Below, in pieces: positions 55,848 to 63,951 of a stretch of 64,000 nucleotides of DNA; position 1 is the stretch's first letter; each line of letters begins with the position of its first letter. The notes beneath the pieces are model-generated. The model did no database searches. It was given only the letters and a program-made list of their open reading frames with translations, and was not told the origin of the DNA. The translations under genes were made by a program, and so were the position numbers. Origin of the DNA: Erysipelotrichaceae bacterium (lineage in GTDB: Bacteria; Bacillota_I; Bacilli_A; Erysipelotrichales; Erysipelotrichaceae); contig JAFWGU010000035.1 in NCBI GenBank assembly GCA_017512285.1, positions 1 through 64,000 of the forward strand, given 5' to 3'.

Positions 55848-56969
55848 ATGGCAAGAGTTAAATTAACTAATGTAAAAAAGATATATGATAAAAACGTAGT
55901 GGCAGTACATGACTTCAATCTTGATATTGCCGACAAGGAATTTGTAGTATTCGTAGGACCTTCAGGCTGTGGTAAGTCAACGACTCTGCGTATGATCGCC
56001 GGCCTGGAAGAGATTTCTGACGGTACTGTTGAAATTGACGGTGTAGTTGTCAATGACTTACAGCCAAAGGACCGTAACATAGCAATGGTCTTCCAGAACT
56101 ATGCTCTGTATCCGCACCTGTCAGTATTTGAAAACATGGCATTCCCGTTAAGACTGCAGAAAATGCCTCAGGAAGAGATCTACAAGAGAGTTACCGAGGC
56201 TGCTGAAGTACTGGGCATTACAGAATATCTGAACCGTAAGCCAAGAGCCCTGTCAGGTGGCCAGAGACAGAGAGTTGCCATCGGACGTGCCATGGTAAGA
56301 GATTCCAAGGTATTCTTAATGGACGAGCCGTTAAGTAACCTGGACGCCAAGCTGCGTAACCAGATGCGTGCTGAGATAATCTTATTACGTAAGAAGATCG
56401 ACACGACATTCGTCTACGTAACCCATGACCAGACCGAAGCCATGACACTTGGTGACAGGATCGTCATCATGAAGGACGGCTATATCCAGCAGGTAGGCAC
56501 ACCAGATGAAGTGTTTGACATGCCTGCAAACCTGTTCGTAGCTGAATTCATCGGCGCACCGAAGATGAATACATTCAGCACCAGACTCGTCAAGGAAAAC
56601 GGTGAGTACTATGTTGAACCGTTCGGTTCAAAGATCAAGGTTACCGGATTAAAGGGTAAGGAACTGGCAGAAAAGAAGATTGAAACAAGAGACATTATCC
56701 TTGGTGTCAGACCTGAACACATCGTTCTGGCTGACAAGAAGGGTGAGGATTCAATCGCATGCACGATTCAGGTCAACGAAATGATGGGCTCTGAGCTGCA
56801 TCTGCACGTACTGACAGAAGACGGCACACCGATCATCGTCCGCGTTCCGACTGTCAACCTGACACACGAACAGCGTGAACAGATGGTCAACGGGCATAAG
56901 ATCTTCATTACATTCGAAGGAAAGGTAATGCATTTCTTTGATCCTGAGACAACTGAAAATCTTCTTTAA
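55848..56969 (+). CDS. Sugar ABC transporter ATP-binding protein, MsmX/MalK type
   Basis: A 373-residue ATPase. Walker A GPSGCGKSTT, Q-loop FQNYALYPH, signature LSGGQRQRVAIGRAM, Walker B VFLMDEPLSNLDAKLR and switch His in VTHDQTEA are all intact. The C-terminal TOBE-type domain (about 240-373) is typical of multi-sugar ATPases. Being in the operon it probably serves this importer, though such ATPases often serve several. AGGAGACT precedes the ATG. Confidence 0.95.
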   Translation: MARVKLTNVKKIYDKNVVAVHDFNLDIADKEFVVFVGPSGCGKSTTLRMIAGLEEISDGTVEIDGVVVNDLQPKDRNIAMVFQNYALYPHLSVFENMAFPLRLQKMPQEEIYKRVTEAAEVLGITEYLNRKPRALSGGQRQRVAIGRAMVRDSKVFLMDEPLSNLDAKLRNQMRAEIILLRKKIDTTFVYVTHDQTEAMTLGDRIVIMKDGYIQQVGTPDEVFDMPANLFVAEFIGAPKMNTFSTRLVKENGEYYVEPFGSKIKVTGLKGKELAEKKIETRDIILGVRPEHIVLADKKGEDSIACTIQVNEMMGSELHLHVLTEDGTPIIVRVPTVNLTHEQREQMVNGHKIFITFEGKVMHFFDPETTENLL

Positions 56970-56990
56970 TTGAATCTTTAATTCTAAGGA

Positions 56991-57026
56991 AAGCGCAAAA
57001 TGTCGTAAGGTGTTTTGCGCTTATTT
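56991..57026 (+). terminator. Hairpin after the ATPase gene, partial terminator
   Basis: AAGCGCAAAA (56991-57000) pairs with TTTTGCGCTT (57013-57022), followed by ATTT. The weak T-tail suggests partial readthrough into the glycosidase genes. Confidence 0.65.
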
Positions 57027-57042
57027 GCATGAGGACACTATT

Positions 57043-58563
57043 ATGAAAAAGATACTGTTAACATGGATGGTATTGCTGATGTTGTTACCGTTATCAGCCT
57101 GCGGCAAGAAGCAGGAGAAAATTGAAATAGTAGATGACAACTACCGTAACGTGTATGAGATATTCGTTGCTTCATTCAACGATTCGGATGGCGATAAGGT
57201 AGGAGATCTCAACGGCGTAACCAGGAAGCTTGATTATCTGCAGGAAATGGGATATACGGGCATCTGGATGATGCCGATCCACCGTTCTCCCTCATATCAC
57301 AAATACGACGTCATTGACTATTACTCAATTGACCCTGCTTACGGGACTCTGGAAGACTTTGAAAAGCTGACTGAGGAAGCGCACAAGAGGGACATCAACA
57401 TCATCATTGACCTGGTAGTAAACCATACTTCTCATCTCAACCCCTGGTTCATTCAGGCTGAGGATGCCTACGCCAAGGGGAACTTTTCACCGTATCTGAA
57501 CTGGTACAACTTTTCTCATGAACCGCAGTATGGCTACGCTGAAAAGGACGGCATCTACTATGAAGCCAGATTCGTTGATTCAATGCCTGACCTGAACCTT
57601 GACGCCAAGGAAGTAAGGGATGAAATAATCAACATCATGAAGTTCTGGGTAGAGAAGGGGGTTGACGGTTTCCGCCTGGACGCCGTTACAAGTTACTATA
57701 CCAATGACATTCAGAAGAATGTTGAATTCATGACCTGGCTAAACAAGGCTGCCAAGGCCATCAAGCCTGACTGCTATATTGTCGGTGAGGCCTGGACGAG
57801 CGATGTTGAGATCAGACAATACTACAAGACCGGAATAGATTCCTTCTTCCTGTTCTCCTTATCTCAGGGAGAGGGTGTACTGGCACAGTGTGTAAAAGTT
57901 GACAAGCCGATCCCGCAGTACAAGAACGCTCTGAGAAACGCCGTCAGCATTGCCGGAGACTACATCCCGGCCATCTTCCTTGACAACCATGACACCAACA
58001 GGATCACTGGTGCCATCGGCAGAACAAAGACAAATGAGACGAAGTTTGCCTATGGTCTGGCAGGCATGCTCAACGGTACATTGTTTACCTACTATGGAAC
58101 GGAGATTGGCATGGTTGGCAGCCGTAAGGATGAAAACAAGCGAATTGCCATGCTTTGGGATTCCAACAAGATGGATGAACTCTGCAAGAATCCGCCTGAT
58201 ACCACCCAGACTGAATACGCCTATCCCGGTGTCAAGCAGCAGCAGAAGGACCAGAATTCCATCCTGAACTATCACAAGCAGGTTAACTACCTGAGAAACA
58301 AATACCCGGAAATTGCCAGAGGCACTGTGGCATTCAACAGCGATCTATCCAGCGGAACAGTCCTGGTATTTGAAAAGACATACGGGGAATCAACCGTATG
58401 CATCGTCATCAGCTTTGACAAGGAAGCCGACCAGACAGTTGAGGGAATTGAATACACCAACTGTGAATTTGTCAGTGCATCCGGAGGCAAGGCAGAACTG
58501 AAGAACGGAGCGCTGACCATTTCTCCGCAGACCATCGCCGTTCTTTCGGGTAAGGGTGAATGA
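57043..58563 (+). CDS. Lipoprotein alpha-amylase, GH13
   Basis: A 506-residue cell-surface glycosidase with lipobox LSAC. GH13 motifs: DLVVNHTS, GFRLDAVTSYY (nucleophile Asp near 212), GEAWTSD (acid/base Glu near 249) and FLDNHDTNR (Asp near 316). It should split starch or maltodextrin outside the membrane and feed the importer. The start at 57043 follows GAGGA; an earlier in-frame start lies inside the hairpin. The stop overlaps the galactanase start (ATGA). Confidence 0.92.
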   Translation: MKKILLTWMVLLMLLPLSACGKKQEKIEIVDDNYRNVYEIFVASFNDSDGDKVGDLNGVTRKLDYLQEMGYTGIWMMPIHRSPSYHKYDVIDYYSIDPAYGTLEDFEKLTEEAHKRDINIIIDLVVNHTSHLNPWFIQAEDAYAKGNFSPYLNWYNFSHEPQYGYAEKDGIYYEARFVDSMPDLNLDAKEVRDEIINIMKFWVEKGVDGFRLDAVTSYYTNDIQKNVEFMTWLNKAAKAIKPDCYIVGEAWTSDVEIRQYYKTGIDSFFLFSLSQGEGVLAQCVKVDKPIPQYKNALRNAVSIAGDYIPAIFLDNHDTNRITGAIGRTKTNETKFAYGLAGMLNGTLFTYYGTEIGMVGSRKDENKRIAMLWDSNKMDELCKNPPDTTQTEYAYPGVKQQQKDQNSILNYHKQVNYLRNKYPEIARGTVAFNSDLSSGTVLVFEKTYGESTVCIVISFDKEADQTVEGIEYTNCEFVSASGGKAELKNGALTISPQTIAVLSGKGE

Positions 58564-60509
58564 AAAGAATACTAATATGCGTGCTGATCATCTGTATGAT
58601 GGTCAGCTTTGCTGCATGCAGCAACAAGACAAAGATCGATCCGGCCGTACAGAGCTCAAAAACGCTCTACGTGCGTAAGGTAGAGCTGCCTGAGGATTTT
58701 ATCATGGGAGCTGATATCAGCTCTGTAATCGCCCTGGAGAACGCCGGGGTGAAGTTCTACGGCTGGGATGGAAATGAACAGGACATTTTCAAGACTCTGG
58801 CGGAAAGCGGTGTAAACTATATACGCGTAAGAGTATGGAATGATCCGTTTGATGAGAACGGCAACGGTTTCGGCGGCGGCAACAATGACGTTGAGACTGC
58901 TGTACTGATTGCTCAGAGAGCAAAGAAGTACGGACTTAAACTGCTGGTCGACTTCCATTATTCTGATTTCTGGGCAGACCCAGGCAAACAGATGGTTCCA
59001 AGAGCCTGGAAGGACATGGATGTCGATACCAAGGCCGAAGCCTTATATCAGTACACTAAGGATTCGCTCCAGAAGATCAAGAAGACCGGTGTTACTATAG
59101 GCATGGTACAGATTGGCAATGAAACCAATGCCAGGATGTGCGGCGAGACCATCTGGTCCAACATTCTGAAGTTAATGAAGGCCGGCAGCAAGGCTGTTCG
59201 CGAGGTTATTCCAAAGGCCAGAATAGCAGTTCACTTTGCCAATCCGGAAAGCGGATCATATGAGACCTACGCCTCCAAGCTGAAATACTACGATCTGGAT
59301 TATGACGTATTTGCTTCGTCATACTATCCTTACTGGCACGGTACCCTTGATGCTCTGAAGCATGAACTGGACAACATTACCGACAATTACGAAAAGGAGG
59401 TAATGGTAGTTGAAACGTCATACGCCTATACTCCAGATGATACAGACTTCTTCGGCAACACCATATCCGATGCCAGCGCAGTTACCAAGAACTATCCGTA
59501 CACCGTTCAGGGCCAGGCAAACTCACTTGTTGACGTTATCGATACGGTTAGTCAGATGAAGAAGGGTATAGGTGTATGTTACTGGGAACCGGCCTGGATA
59601 ACCGTTGGCCACAATAACTATGAGGAAAACAAGGTATTGTGGGAGAAATACGGTGCCGGATGGGCAAGCAGCTATGCGGCAGTTTACGACAAGGCAGATG
59701 CCGGCAGATACCATGGCGGCAGTGCCGTAGACAATCAGGCGCTGTTTGATGAAAACGGACATCCGCTGGAATCACTGAAGACGTTCGCTCTGGTAAGGAC
59801 CGGCAACATCATTCCTCTCAAGGCGGTGGCCATCAAGGACGTTGCCATTAGCTGCGATCTTAATGAGGAGATCGTATTGCCTGAAACCGTAAGTGCCATC
59901 ATGTCTGATAATTCTCATCAGCAGGTTCCTGTAAAATGGGAAGAATATGACAGCAAGATGATGCATGAAAACGGCGTAAGACAGTATGTTATCCATGGCG
60001 AAGCGGAAGGCATGCAGGCAACCTGTTATCTGTCCATGATCAAGTTCAACTTCCTGAAGAATTATTCATTTGAAGACGGTGAGCTGGGAAGCTGGAAGGT
60101 AACGGATAACGGTAAGACCGAACAGGCCTACATAGAAAAAAAGGCAACTGACTCACTGAGCGGGGAATATCATTTCCACTTCTGGAGTGCAGCAGCCAAC
60201 AGCATCAACTTTGATCTTGAACAGGATCTGAATGATCTGAAAGAGGGAACATACCGTTATCAGATCTCCATCATGGGAGGAGATGGCGGCAATACCAGCA
60301 TCTATGCCTATGTCAAGATCAACGGGGAGATCGTCAAGACGGAACCATCCAGGATCACATCCTATAATGAGTGGCATACGGCCGTGATAAGCGGCATAAG
60401 CGTCTCTTCAGGAGATAAGGTAACAGCAGGCATTCACGTTGAATGTGCCGGCGCCGGAAACGGTGCCTGGGGCAAGATCGACGATGCACTGTTCAATTAC
60501 GATGATTAG
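58560..60509 (+). CDS. Lipoprotein arabinogalactan endo-beta-1,4-galactanase, GH53
   Basis: A 649-residue surface enzyme with lipobox FAAC. The GH53 catalytic domain (about 45-400) shows GADISSVIALE, YIRVRVWNDP, LLVDFHYSDFWADPGKQ, acid/base Glu in QIGNETN and nucleophile Glu in VMVVETSYAYT. A bacterial Ig-like domain (about 405-500) and a C-terminal carbohydrate-binding-like domain (about 505-649) follow. GH53 cleaves beta-1,4-galactan of pectin. Its place in an operon with malQ and a GH13 amylase is unusual and suggests combined glucan/galactan use. Four-base overlap with the amylase gene. Confidence 0.9.
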   Translation: MKRILICVLIICMMVSFAACSNKTKIDPAVQSSKTLYVRKVELPEDFIMGADISSVIALENAGVKFYGWDGNEQDIFKTLAESGVNYIRVRVWNDPFDENGNGFGGGNNDVETAVLIAQRAKKYGLKLLVDFHYSDFWADPGKQMVPRAWKDMDVDTKAEALYQYTKDSLQKIKKTGVTIGMVQIGNETNARMCGETIWSNILKLMKAGSKAVREVIPKARIAVHFANPESGSYETYASKLKYYDLDYDVFASSYYPYWHGTLDALKHELDNITDNYEKEVMVVETSYAYTPDDTDFFGNTISDASAVTKNYPYTVQGQANSLVDVIDTVSQMKKGIGVCYWEPAWITVGHNNYEENKVLWEKYGAGWASSYAAVYDKADAGRYHGGSAVDNQALFDENGHPLESLKTFALVRTGNIIPLKAVAIKDVAISCDLNEEIVLPETVSAIMSDNSHQQVPVKWEEYDSKMMHENGVRQYVIHGEAEGMQATCYLSMIKFNFLKNYSFEDGELGSWKVTDNGKTEQAYIEKKATDSLSGEYHFHFWSAAANSINFDLEQDLNDLKEGTYRYQISIMGGDGGNTSIYAYVKINGEIVKTEPSRITSYNEWHTAVISGISVSSGDKVTAGIHVECAGAGNGAWGKIDDALFNYDD

Positions 60510-60590: not shown

Positions 60591-61130
60591 ATGAAACTGA
60601 CTGAAGGAATGACTTTTCCGAATTTTACCGTAAATACCAGTAGAGAAGACAATGTGGATCTCTACAGCCGCATTGACAGAAAGACAGTATTCTGGGTGAT
60701 CCGCTACATAGGATGTACCGTATGCCGCTATGACGTGCATGTACTGGCTGAAAACTATGAAAGGATCAGAGAAAAGGGCTGCCAGTTGTTTGTGGTAATG
60801 CAGTCGGACACTGATCATGTCAGAAGGGAACTTAAGGATGCGAATATCCCGTTTGAGATAATCTGCGATAATGAGTTCAGAATCTACAATGAACTGGAAA
60901 TAAACCCGGCTGCCAGTCCTGAAGAGCTCAGAGGAGAAAACGTTGAGGCTCTGAAGGAAAAGGGCGGCAAGGCCAGAGCCCTGGGCTTCTCACATGGCGA
61001 CTATGAGGGCAATGAACTTCAGCTGCCGGCATTATTCATCGTCGATGAGAAGTGCAATGTTTTGAAAGCACATTACGGTAAGAACATTCTGGACATGCCG
61101 AGTGTTGATGAACTGGTTGAAATGATATAA
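60591..61130 (+). CDS. Peroxiredoxin-like protein
   Basis: A 179-residue thioredoxin-fold protein of the AhpC/TSA-like group. The active-site region is RYIGCTVCRYD with Cys42 and Cys45 as a CxxC pair; most peroxiredoxins have a single Cys here. The end has LPALFIVDEKCNVLKAHYG, the cis-Pro and strand of the fold. It probably reduces peroxides or works as a thiol-disulfide reductase in the cytosol. AGGAGGAC precedes the ATG. Monocistronic. Confidence 0.85.
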   Translation: MKLTEGMTFPNFTVNTSREDNVDLYSRIDRKTVFWVIRYIGCTVCRYDVHVLAENYERIREKGCQLFVVMQSDTDHVRRELKDANIPFEIICDNEFRIYNELEINPAASPEELRGENVEALKEKGGKARALGFSHGDYEGNELQLPALFIVDEKCNVLKAHYGKNILDMPSVDELVEMI

Positions 61131-61132
61131 AG

Positions 61133-61158
61133 AAAAAAGAGGAGCGATCCTCTTTTTT
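61133..61158. terminator. Bidirectional terminator
   Basis: AAAAGAGGA (61135-61143), loop GCGA, TCCTCTTTT (61148-61156), with A-rich and T-rich flanks. Lies between the peroxiredoxin gene and the convergent ATP-grasp gene. Confidence 0.85.
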
Positions 61159-62344
61159 AGTGGTTTTCAAATACTTCCTGTACGAAGCGGTTGGTTTCCT
61201 CTTCGGTATCAAATGTTGCGATGTACATGTAGTTGCCCATCGTATTTGACAGTGCTTCAGCAACCGGGCCTTCCATTCTGATGTGCTCACCGTACTTGCG
61301 GTAGATGTCGTCATGGCTCATGACGAAGTTCTTGCCGTTTCTTCTGCCGGCGAATACGCAGAACTGAGAGTTCTTATTGATTCTGTCGGTCTTGTCATAG
61401 GCGATCATGTCAGCCCAGATCTCATAGACATCAGTTCCGTTTGCGTAGTTCATCATGGTAGGTGAGATGCCGCCGCTTGGTCTCATGTTGACCTCAAGGG
61501 CAACGATGTCACCTTCCTTGCCTAAGTACTGATCCTTTGTCAGTAAGAAGAATTCAAAGTGGGTGAATCTGCTCTTTACGCCAAAGGCCTTTAAGGTCTT
61601 TCTGCCGATCTCGGCCAGCTTTTCCGGAACCTTGTTACGGATGTAGAATACGCAGTTGTCGCCGTCATTGACGATGTCCATCAGGCTGTTAGGCGTAACG
61701 TTTCCGGTTTCAAAGATCGTATCTCCCTTGGAATTGGTTATGGAGTCAAAGGTGATTACCTGTCCGGTAATGAACTCTTCCATGATGTATGGCTCATCGA
61801 TCCTTGTTTCCAGGAAGTTCTTCAGGTCTTCATCGCTCTTCAGTTTATAGGTATGAGCAGCTCCAACCCCGTTGTCAGGCTTTACGATTACCGGATAGCC
61901 AACTTCATCAATGAATTTGCGGCAGTTTTCAAAGTCGTCAACCATGTGGAATCTGGCAACCGGAACACCAGCCTTGATGTAGTTTTCCTTCATTCTGGAC
62001 TTGTACTTGACCTGAGGCATGTCCTCAACGTGGAAACCTGAATTGATGTTGAAGTCAGTACGAAGTCTGGCATCTCTTTCCAGCCAGTATTCATTGTTTG
62101 ATTCCAGCCAGTCGATGCGGCCGTACTTGAAGATAAAGAAAGCAACGGCCTTATATACTTCGTCGTAGTTTTCCAGTGATGAGACCTTGTAGTACTCATT
62201 CATTGAGTTCTTGAGGTCATCAGTCAGATTATCATATGGACAGTCGCCAATTCCTAAGACGTTGAGTCCGTTCTGTTTCAGATGATAACAGAAATTCCAG
62301 TAGTTTTCCGGAAAGTTCGGTGAAATGAAAATAAAGTTCTTCAT
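61157..62344 (-). CDS. ATP-grasp ligase, unknown product
   Basis: A 395-residue ATP-grasp enzyme. An N-terminal pre-ATP-grasp part (MKNFIFISPNFPENYWNF) precedes the ATP-binding core: YPVIVKPDNGVGAAHTYKLKS with the ATP-binding Lys, EPYIMEEFITG, and the metal site FFLLTKDQYLG ... VALEVNMRPSGG. It should join a carboxylate to an amine or thiol through an acyl phosphate. The start at 62344 is preferred because GAAAGGA lies just upstream; homology also starts there. Last gene of an operon with two esterases, 14 nt after the second. Confidence 0.85.
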   Translation of the reverse strand: MKNFIFISPNFPENYWNFCYHLKQNGLNVLGIGDCPYDNLTDDLKNSMNEYYKVSSLENYDEVYKAVAFFIFKYGRIDWLESNNEYWLERDARLRTDFNINSGFHVEDMPQVKYKSRMKENYIKAGVPVARFHMVDDFENCRKFIDEVGYPVIVKPDNGVGAAHTYKLKSDEDLKNFLETRIDEPYIMEEFITGQVITFDSITNSKGDTIFETGNVTPNSLMDIVNDGDNCVFYIRNKVPEKLAEIGRKTLKAFGVKSRFTHFEFFLLTKDQYLGKEGDIVALEVNMRPSGGISPTMMNYANGTDVYEIWADMIAYDKTDRINKNSQFCVFAGRRNGKNFVMSHDDIYRKYGEHIRMEGPVAEALSNTMGNYMYIATFDTEEETNRFVQEVFENH

Positions 62345-62358
62345 AGTGTGGTTCCTTT

Positions 62359-63114
62359 CTAATCTTCCATCAGATATGGCATGAAGTACGGTATCTGCTT
62401 GTACCACCATGGCCAGTCATGATTAACGTCGTATCCCCAGTAGTCAAACCAGATCTTAATGCCGAGCCTTGCGCAGCTGGCATCAACGCTTCTGGTACTG
62501 TCAGGCAATTCCCAGGCTCCCTGACCTACACATACTACAGCCTTATGCTGATTGTACTTTTCAATGAAGGGGTGACCTTCAGGCATGTGAGCCATGTAAT
62601 CGGTAACGGAATTTTTGTAACATATTTCATCCATGTAGTCTCCCATGAAGAATGAGGCATGGTATGCACCGCTTAAGGCCAGGCATCTGTCAAACAGATC
62701 CGGGAAGCGGAAATATAGATTGAGAGCATGGGTAGCTCCCATTGAACAGCCAAAGGTCATTATGCCCGGGTAGCCTGTCCAGCCGTTTTTCATGTTGACG
62801 TATTCCCTGATGAACGGTACGGCTTCTCTGGTAATGTAGTCGATCCACTCCTCATGACGTCTCATGCGCCAGTACGGATCGCCGTTCTTGTCGCTCCAGG
62901 TCTCACGGTCGATTGAATCAATTGCGAAGACCATGCACTGGCCGCTTTCGATCCAGGGACCGAATGAATCGGTCAGATTGAAGTTTTCAAAATCAAAGAA
63001 GCGTCCGTCCTGACATGGCAGGAACAGAATCGGTCTGCCGTGGTGACCATATACTTTCATTGGCATGGTACGGTGCAGAATGTTGCTGTAGTAATCAATG
63101 TAGTTAGTTTCCAT
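62359..63114 (-). CDS. Esterase-family alpha/beta hydrolase A
   Basis: A 251-residue putative esterase (PF00756, esterase D/antigen 85-like). The nucleophile elbow is GCSMGATHAL; a late His is in DVNHDWPWW. N-terminal Gly-rich PILFLPCQDGRFFDFENF lies in the oxyanion region. No signal peptide, so cytosolic. It lies 10 nt after esterase B and 14 nt before the ATP-grasp gene. Could hydrolyse or transfer an acyl group on the product of the ligase. Confidence 0.85.
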   Translation of the reverse strand: METNYIDYYSNILHRTMPMKVYGHHGRPILFLPCQDGRFFDFENFNLTDSFGPWIESGQCMVFAIDSIDRETWSDKNGDPYWRMRRHEEWIDYITREAVPFIREYVNMKNGWTGYPGIMTFGCSMGATHALNLYFRFPDLFDRCLALSGAYHASFFMGDYMDEICYKNSVTDYMAHMPEGHPFIEKYNQHKAVVCVGQGAWELPDSTRSVDASCARLGIKIWFDYWGYDVNHDWPWWYKQIPYFMPYLMED

Positions 63115-63124
63115 AATGATATCC

Positions 63125-63889
63125 TCAATCTTCCAGTAAGATGTTCATGAAATGCGGTATTTCCTTTTCCCAGGACTCCTCTGAGTGAGTTCCACCGGGA
63201 AGGATGCGGGTATTGAGCATTACTTTCTTGCGATGCAGCAGCTTTATGACTTCCCCGAAGTCCTTGCGGATGACGGGGTGCTTTATTTCCTGCTCTCCGA
63301 AATCGGCAAACAGAATGGTATTCTTTCCTATTCTGGCAGACCTGATCATCTGCTTGACCTCGTTAAATGAAAAGCCGATGGCAGGTGAGATGGCTGCTCC
63401 CTTGGAGAAGACATCGTTGTAGCAGCATAATGCATACAGTGTCATTAATCCGCCCATTGAGCTTCCGCCGATCCAGGTGAATTCCCTGTCAGGAAGAGTA
63501 GGGTAGTTATCGTCGACATAGGGCTTGAATTCCTCGACAAACCAGTCCATGGTGATCTTGCCGCGGCCGATGACATCTCCCCAGTGAGGACTGTAGAAGT
63601 CAAACGGACTGTATTCTGAAAGCCTGCCTCCGCATTCATCAGTTTCCGGGTGATGGTTGCACTCAACTGCCGCTATGATGACCGGAATGTCATTGCTTTC
63701 AAAGTAATCTAGCATTCTCCAGCTTCTGCCGAATGAGGCGTCTTCATCGTGGAAGAGATTCTGGCCATCAAACATGTAGAGAACCGGGAATCTGGCATCT
63801 TCGTCATATCCTTCCGGCACGTATACATAAACGTTTCTCTCTTCATCCCCGGTAAGCTGGGGAATGGTAATTGGCCAGGTATCCAACAT
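63125..63889 (-). CDS. Esterase-family alpha/beta hydrolase B
   Basis: A 254-residue putative esterase of the same family. Motifs: VLYMFDGQNLFHDEDA, the nucleophile elbow IGGSSMGGLMTLYA, Asp in LFADFGEQE and final His in PGGTHSEESW. No signal peptide. Clearly diverged from esterase A, so the two are probably not redundant. GAGGT lies before the ATG. First gene of the three-gene operon. Confidence 0.88.
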   Translation of the reverse strand: MLDTWPITIPQLTGDEERNVYVYVPEGYDEDARFPVLYMFDGQNLFHDEDASFGRSWRMLDYFESNDIPVIIAAVECNHHPETDECGGRLSEYSPFDFYSPHWGDVIGRGKITMDWFVEEFKPYVDDNYPTLPDREFTWIGGSSMGGLMTLYALCCYNDVFSKGAAISPAIGFSFNEVKQMIRSARIGKNTILFADFGEQEIKHPVIRKDFGEVIKLLHRKKVMLNTRILPGGTHSEESWEKEIPHFMNILLED

Positions 63890-63922: not shown

Positions 63923-63951
63923 ATTTTACACGATTTTCACAAGATGTAAAA
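63923..63951 (-). promoter_or_regulatory. Promoter of the esterase/ATP-grasp operon with inverted repeat
   Basis: Minus-strand TTTACA (plus 63945-63950), 16-nt spacer and TAAAAT (plus 63923-63928). TTTTACA (63924-63930) and TGTAAAA (63945-63951) form an inverted repeat that covers both promoter boxes, a possible operator. Confidence 0.6.

Follow-up and report, generated by a model that had tools for sequence, protein, structure and literature searches.

Three neighbouring genes on the minus strand, here called EA, EB and AG, very likely share one metabolic job, since they form a compact group that is kept together in many gut bacteria. They were analysed in a window of 64,000 nucleotides from an Erysipelotrichaceae bacterium. 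Our leading explanation, which we hold tentatively and with a little less than even confidence, is that the trio is one transcription unit and acts as a cytosolic module, in which AG would form an amide or dipeptide bond and EA and EB would hydrolyse an ester carried by the precursor or by the product.

The first gene, EA (63125..63889, minus strand), encodes a PF00756 serine hydrolase of 254 aa (Pfam E 3.2e-15, 57 bits); the middle gene, EB (62359..63114, minus strand), a 251 aa protein of a second PF00756 subfamily (E 8.5e-11, 42.5 bits); and the third, AG (61157..62344, minus strand), a 395 aa ATP-grasp ligase with a predicted L-amino acid ligase fold. The EA stop and the EB start are separated by 10 nt, and the EB stop and the AG ATG by 14 nt. 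The original prediction of a tandem minus-strand pair of PF00756 proteins with an ATP-grasp protein is borne out by these gaps and by Pfam scores that exceed the cut-offs (22 bits for PF00756). The AG start was set at the ATG at 62344, which is preceded by AGAAAGGAACC and matches the starts of the relatives; the start at 62410 given by a mechanical list of open reading frames was rejected, because this position falls within EB. The neighbours on either side lie on the opposite strand, indicating that the trio is an isolated three-gene unit. Purifying selection acts on all three genes, with a dN/dS of about 0.05-0.14 in congeneric pairs with unsaturated synonymous sites.

Upstream of EA there is a sigma-70-like promoter-like site (TTTACA-16-TAAAAT; 63923..63950, minus strand) that agrees with 10 of the 12 consensus positions, a quality reached equally often by sites in shuffled sequence; the TGTAAAAT -10 region is kept in the congeners L040, L041 and L043. 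A strong intrinsic terminator-like hairpin (61133..61158, minus strand; 11 pairs and a T-run) lies 3' of AG. Control of expression through an inverted repeat in the promoter had also been proposed, and this proposal is not upheld: the 7+7 repeat (TTTTACA/TGTAAAA; 63924..63951, no strand) fortuitously overlaps, and amounts to, the -35 and -10 hexamers, a repeat of this kind arises in 24% of shuffles, 98 of the 423 stretches of equal length across the window (about 23%) hold one, and three congeners have not kept the left arm. An inverted-repeat operator was therefore rejected, given its chance-level frequency and its lack of conservation in close relatives.

A profile search with AG in the GTDB species genomes returned at least 442 relatives, and the loci of the best 80 were scored by six-frame profile scanning. 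Among these best 80 of at least 442, which over-represent AGs close to that of the window, 61 carry EA-EB-AG on the same strand and in the same order; the others have a split EA (one locus), EB-AG (seven), EA-AG (five) or AG alone (six), and some of the incomplete loci are cut off by contig ends (L082, L084, L086). Median gaps in the trios of the relatives are 22 and 45 nt, with starts estimated. In one locus EA is broken into two open reading frames in an otherwise whole operon (L089:4255-5044), probably by a frameshift or an assembly error. A trio not conserved together had been named as a result that would refute the original pathway idea. The idea survived this test: the order of the trio is kept across many gut Bacillota, and chance does not account for the grouping.

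Other gene orders occur in the Erysipelotrichales (AG-EB, AG-EB-EA, AG-EA, AG-EB-AG), and AG is linked to EB in Peptoclostridium and in two Rhizobiaceae (replicons of Pararhizobium and Sinorhizobium). In the Erysipelotrichales loci L047, L048, L049 and L057, paralogous ATP-grasp genes stand on both sides of EB; the two AG copies of these AG-EB-AG loci form separate clades. Across 295 genomes of the phylum, AG was found in 69 and EB in 32; AG is present in 31 of the 32 genomes bearing EB, compared with 38 of the 263 without it. EA matched strongly, at more than 240 bits, in 22 genomes, and 20 of them carry AG. Because these co-occurrence counts do not factor in shared ancestry, the case for joint function leans more on the fact that the genes were relinked repeatedly and in different orders. 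Distant EB homologues of Rhizobium and Thiodictyon (27-33% identity) have no AG within 6 kb on either side, and they thus give no functional lead.

In a tree of 128 AG proteins computed by a quick method, all EA-EB-AG carriers fall within one clade of 88 rows (SH-aLRT 100), which mixes Erysipelotrichaceae with Lachnospiraceae, Oscillospiraceae, Faecalibacterium and others. The AG of the window is 58-66% identical to the AGs from the Clostridia side, and less so, about 38-53%, to those from other families in its own class. In the genus of the window and its nearest kin the trio occupies no fewer than four different neighbourhoods (L039/L040, L041-L043, L044, L045), so that the flanks change among congeners and the trio stays whole. 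The mixed-family clade, the higher identity across classes and the changing flanks indicate that EA-EB-AG behaves as a self-contained, horizontally spread accessory cassette exchanged among gut bacteria. Most of the sources are metagenome-assembled genomes (MAGs), in which single placements (e.g. Mailhella-labelled bins) could be binning errors; the trio was found in ruminant MAGs and also in two isolates, Faecalibacterium prausnitzii APC923/51-1 and Faecalicatena contorta ET52.

All three enzymes belong to known superfamilies. EA and EB exceed the PF00756 gathering score and have Ser-acid-His triads: in EA the nucleophile S144 (GGSSMGG), H235 and either D196 or E201 as the acid, all four invariant in 33 relatives; in EB S124, E202 and H232, invariant in 38 relatives. 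EB also has a C-terminal DVxHDWPWW motif. The two hydrolases are divergent, as had been predicted: they belong to distinct subfamilies, which align with a profile-profile probability of 72% and only in the C-terminal half. The nearest solved relatives of EA by sequence are CE1 feruloyl esterases, with a weak match to IroE/BES-type esterases (2QM0, 3GFF); no siderophore genes are linked to the trio. The EB model (pLDDT 95.4) has its best fold matches in the Bacteroides feruloyl esterases BT_4077 and Bacint_04212, followed by formylglutathione hydrolases and antigen 85. EA and EB share the fold and the triad of the CE1/PF00756 feruloyl esterases (BT_4077, 7XRT; Bacint_04212, 5VOL; XynZ, 1JJF), to which EB is about 14-15% identical by fold; unlike those enzymes, they have no evident secretion signal and no carbohydrate-binding module and are partnered with a ligase. 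No signal peptide was evident in either sequence when read by eye, and both proteins are cytosolic-looking.

AG matches PF13535, PF07478, PF02655 and CPSase_L_D2 above the Pfam cut-offs, and its top solved relative by profile is RizA (4wd3, E 5.8e-20). In a PDB search with its AlphaFold2 model (pLDDT 92.4, pTM 0.89), ranks 1-5 are all L-amino acid ligases (Lal, EC 6.3.2.28 type: RizA, 4WD3; BacD/YwfE, 3VMM/3WNZ; BL00235, 3VOT), with E down to 5.4e-25 and TM 0.68-0.73, followed by PurK and biotin carboxylase. The overall fold is thus closest to the L-amino acid ligases; against a reading of AG as an enzyme of this type, identity to these five is 12-19%, and PurK, biotin carboxylase and GAR synthetase also reach TM-scores of about 0.7. 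Assignment as carbamoyl-phosphate synthase, PurK, PurD or Ddl was rejected: AG shares the ATP-grasp core with PurK, PurD, biotin carboxylase and CPSase, and all NCBIfam matches are far under the equivalog cut-offs (e.g. CPSase 34 against 1027 bits; purK 25 against 318). A grouping of the ligase with a known pathway enzyme had been named as a result that would count against the original prediction; in fold AG does group with the L-amino acid ligases, and it stands outside any known pathway, its partners being two esterases and not an antibiotic cluster.

The ATP/Mg and acyl-phosphate residues that AG has in common with the L-amino acid ligases (K115, K155, E264, E284, N286, R288) are invariant in 35 relatives. 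In the profile alignment, N84-E85-Y86-W87 of AG pair with T81-E82-K83-S84 of RizA, and V160/A162 with S156/A158. The glutamate (RizA E82, AG E85) may hold the substrate amino group, as the corresponding residue does in Lal structures. The specificity positions differ (T81/K83/S84/S156 in RizA, N84/Y86/W87/V160 in AG). Mutation of T81, K83, S84, S156 or A158 in RizA alters the dipeptide output (PMC9321006). N84, E85, W87, V160 and A162 are invariant across the AG clade; the AG family therefore appears to have a single conserved substrate pocket, differing from that of RizA.

In the module that we tentatively favour, AG would use ATP to activate an amino-acid-like substrate at its carboxylate and couple it to an amine, giving a dipeptide or another amide, and EB and EA, with their intact triads, would cleave the ester. 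EB would be the closest working partner of AG, and EA the more dispensable one. Against this module, AG stands with neither esterase gene adjacent in several lineages, which means that AG either can act without them or has a different role there; a further point against it is that transporters, regulators and carriers show no consistent linkage to the trio. The original prediction of an unknown small-molecule pathway stands, and its more specific part, that a peptide-like or ester-linked compound is assembled and then released, is plausible and unproven. The trio is present in cultured gut bacteria and ruminant MAGs, yet the literature searched, which covered few subscription journals, held no function for it and no description of it as a unit. 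It is possible, though doubtful, that EA-EB-AG is an undescribed, horizontally spread gut cassette whose enzymes produce or modify amino-acid amides or esters of a new metabolite class in the intestine of animals. If its product is an amino acid conjugate, the gain would be one more gut-microbial metabolite whose genetic basis is known; the module is three genes long, self-contained, movable and small enough to be expressed whole in E. coli, so that the product can be sought directly.

A Christensenellaceae-like lineage has a wider gene run, GH3 - GDSL - PanE-like - S33 - (EA-EB-)AG, with spoIVA downstream (L111, L132, L137, L139, L147, L153, L158); three of its members lack EA and EB and retain AG. 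The GH3, GDSL, ketopantoate-reductase-like and S33 genes are an independent tie of AG to ester hydrolases, and they leave room for a salvage or detoxification of plant acyl conjugates, in which EA and EB would hydrolyse an imported ester to give an acid, phenolic or of another kind, that AG would then conjugate or recycle; in the one lineage, the GDSL and S33 hydrolases and the GH3 glycosidase would add to the acid release. We consider this rather unlikely. The feruloyl esterases nearest to EA and EB by sequence and fold, and the herbivore gut sites named for many of the MAGs, point towards it, as does this neighbourhood, but the CE1/PF00756 likeness is broad, with formylglutathione hydrolases and antigen 85 almost as near, and the extended neighbourhood is limited to one lineage. 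To our knowledge, L-amino acid ligases use amino acids, not free aryl acids. The same limitation of the GH3-GDSL-PanE-S33 and SpoIVA arrangement to one lineage led us to reject a conserved wider cluster.

A pathway dedicated to making a bioactive dipeptide or depsipeptide for secretion, comparable to the bacilysin or rhizocticin clusters, would suit the BacD/RizA fold of AG and the accessory nature of the cassette (AG in four of 245 sampled genomes of Faecalibacterium's class, at the cut-off used). We regard it as improbable, as no modifying enzyme, exporter or immunity gene is linked to the trio with any consistency across the 120 neighbourhoods, and none of the partners typical of bacilysin or rhizocticin clusters was seen beside it. 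The previously noted lack of a carrier protein or known biosynthetic partner near the trio was confirmed, and beyond EA and EB no conserved partner was found in the 120 neighbourhoods. Lineages with AG only would fit unrelated genes held together by drift, but this is very improbable, since the order is kept across class boundaries although the flanks changed, the genes were relinked independently in several orders, and AG is present in 31 of the 32 genomes with EB. An anti-phage defence system was rejected, with no match to a PADLOC model at E 0.01.

Around the trio of the window, an AhpC/TSA-like gene (60591-61130, opposite strand) adjoins the AG end and, past the window edge on the EA side, there is a metallo-beta-lactamase-flavodoxin-rubredoxin fusion (L039:4044-6047). 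Both neighbours are oxygen-stress genes; the fusion recurs only in the nearest congener, so this flanking is probably incidental. Beside the trio (55848-60509) lies one run in which an ABC transporter ATPase comes first and two lipoprotein-like glycoside hydrolases come after it; judged by eye, one is alpha-amylase-like and the other GH53-like. The F-type ATP synthase-like genes, SpoIVA and the GGGtGRT proteins met in other neighbourhoods look incidental; in family f8 (L072, L074, L075, L077) a stand-alone AG is just downstream of apparent F-type ATP synthase genes, judged by size and order only. Two loci have a large gene between EB and AG, encoding a DUF6273 protein (L121:3754-5922) and a histidine kinase with receiver domains (L125:3128-5977), which are taken as mutually unrelated insertions. 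On a plasmid of Massilia litorea (L162:5875-9176), a distant AG homologue (32% identity) follows a class III aminotransferase and a methyltransferase, which suggests an amino-acid-derived substrate for this branch.
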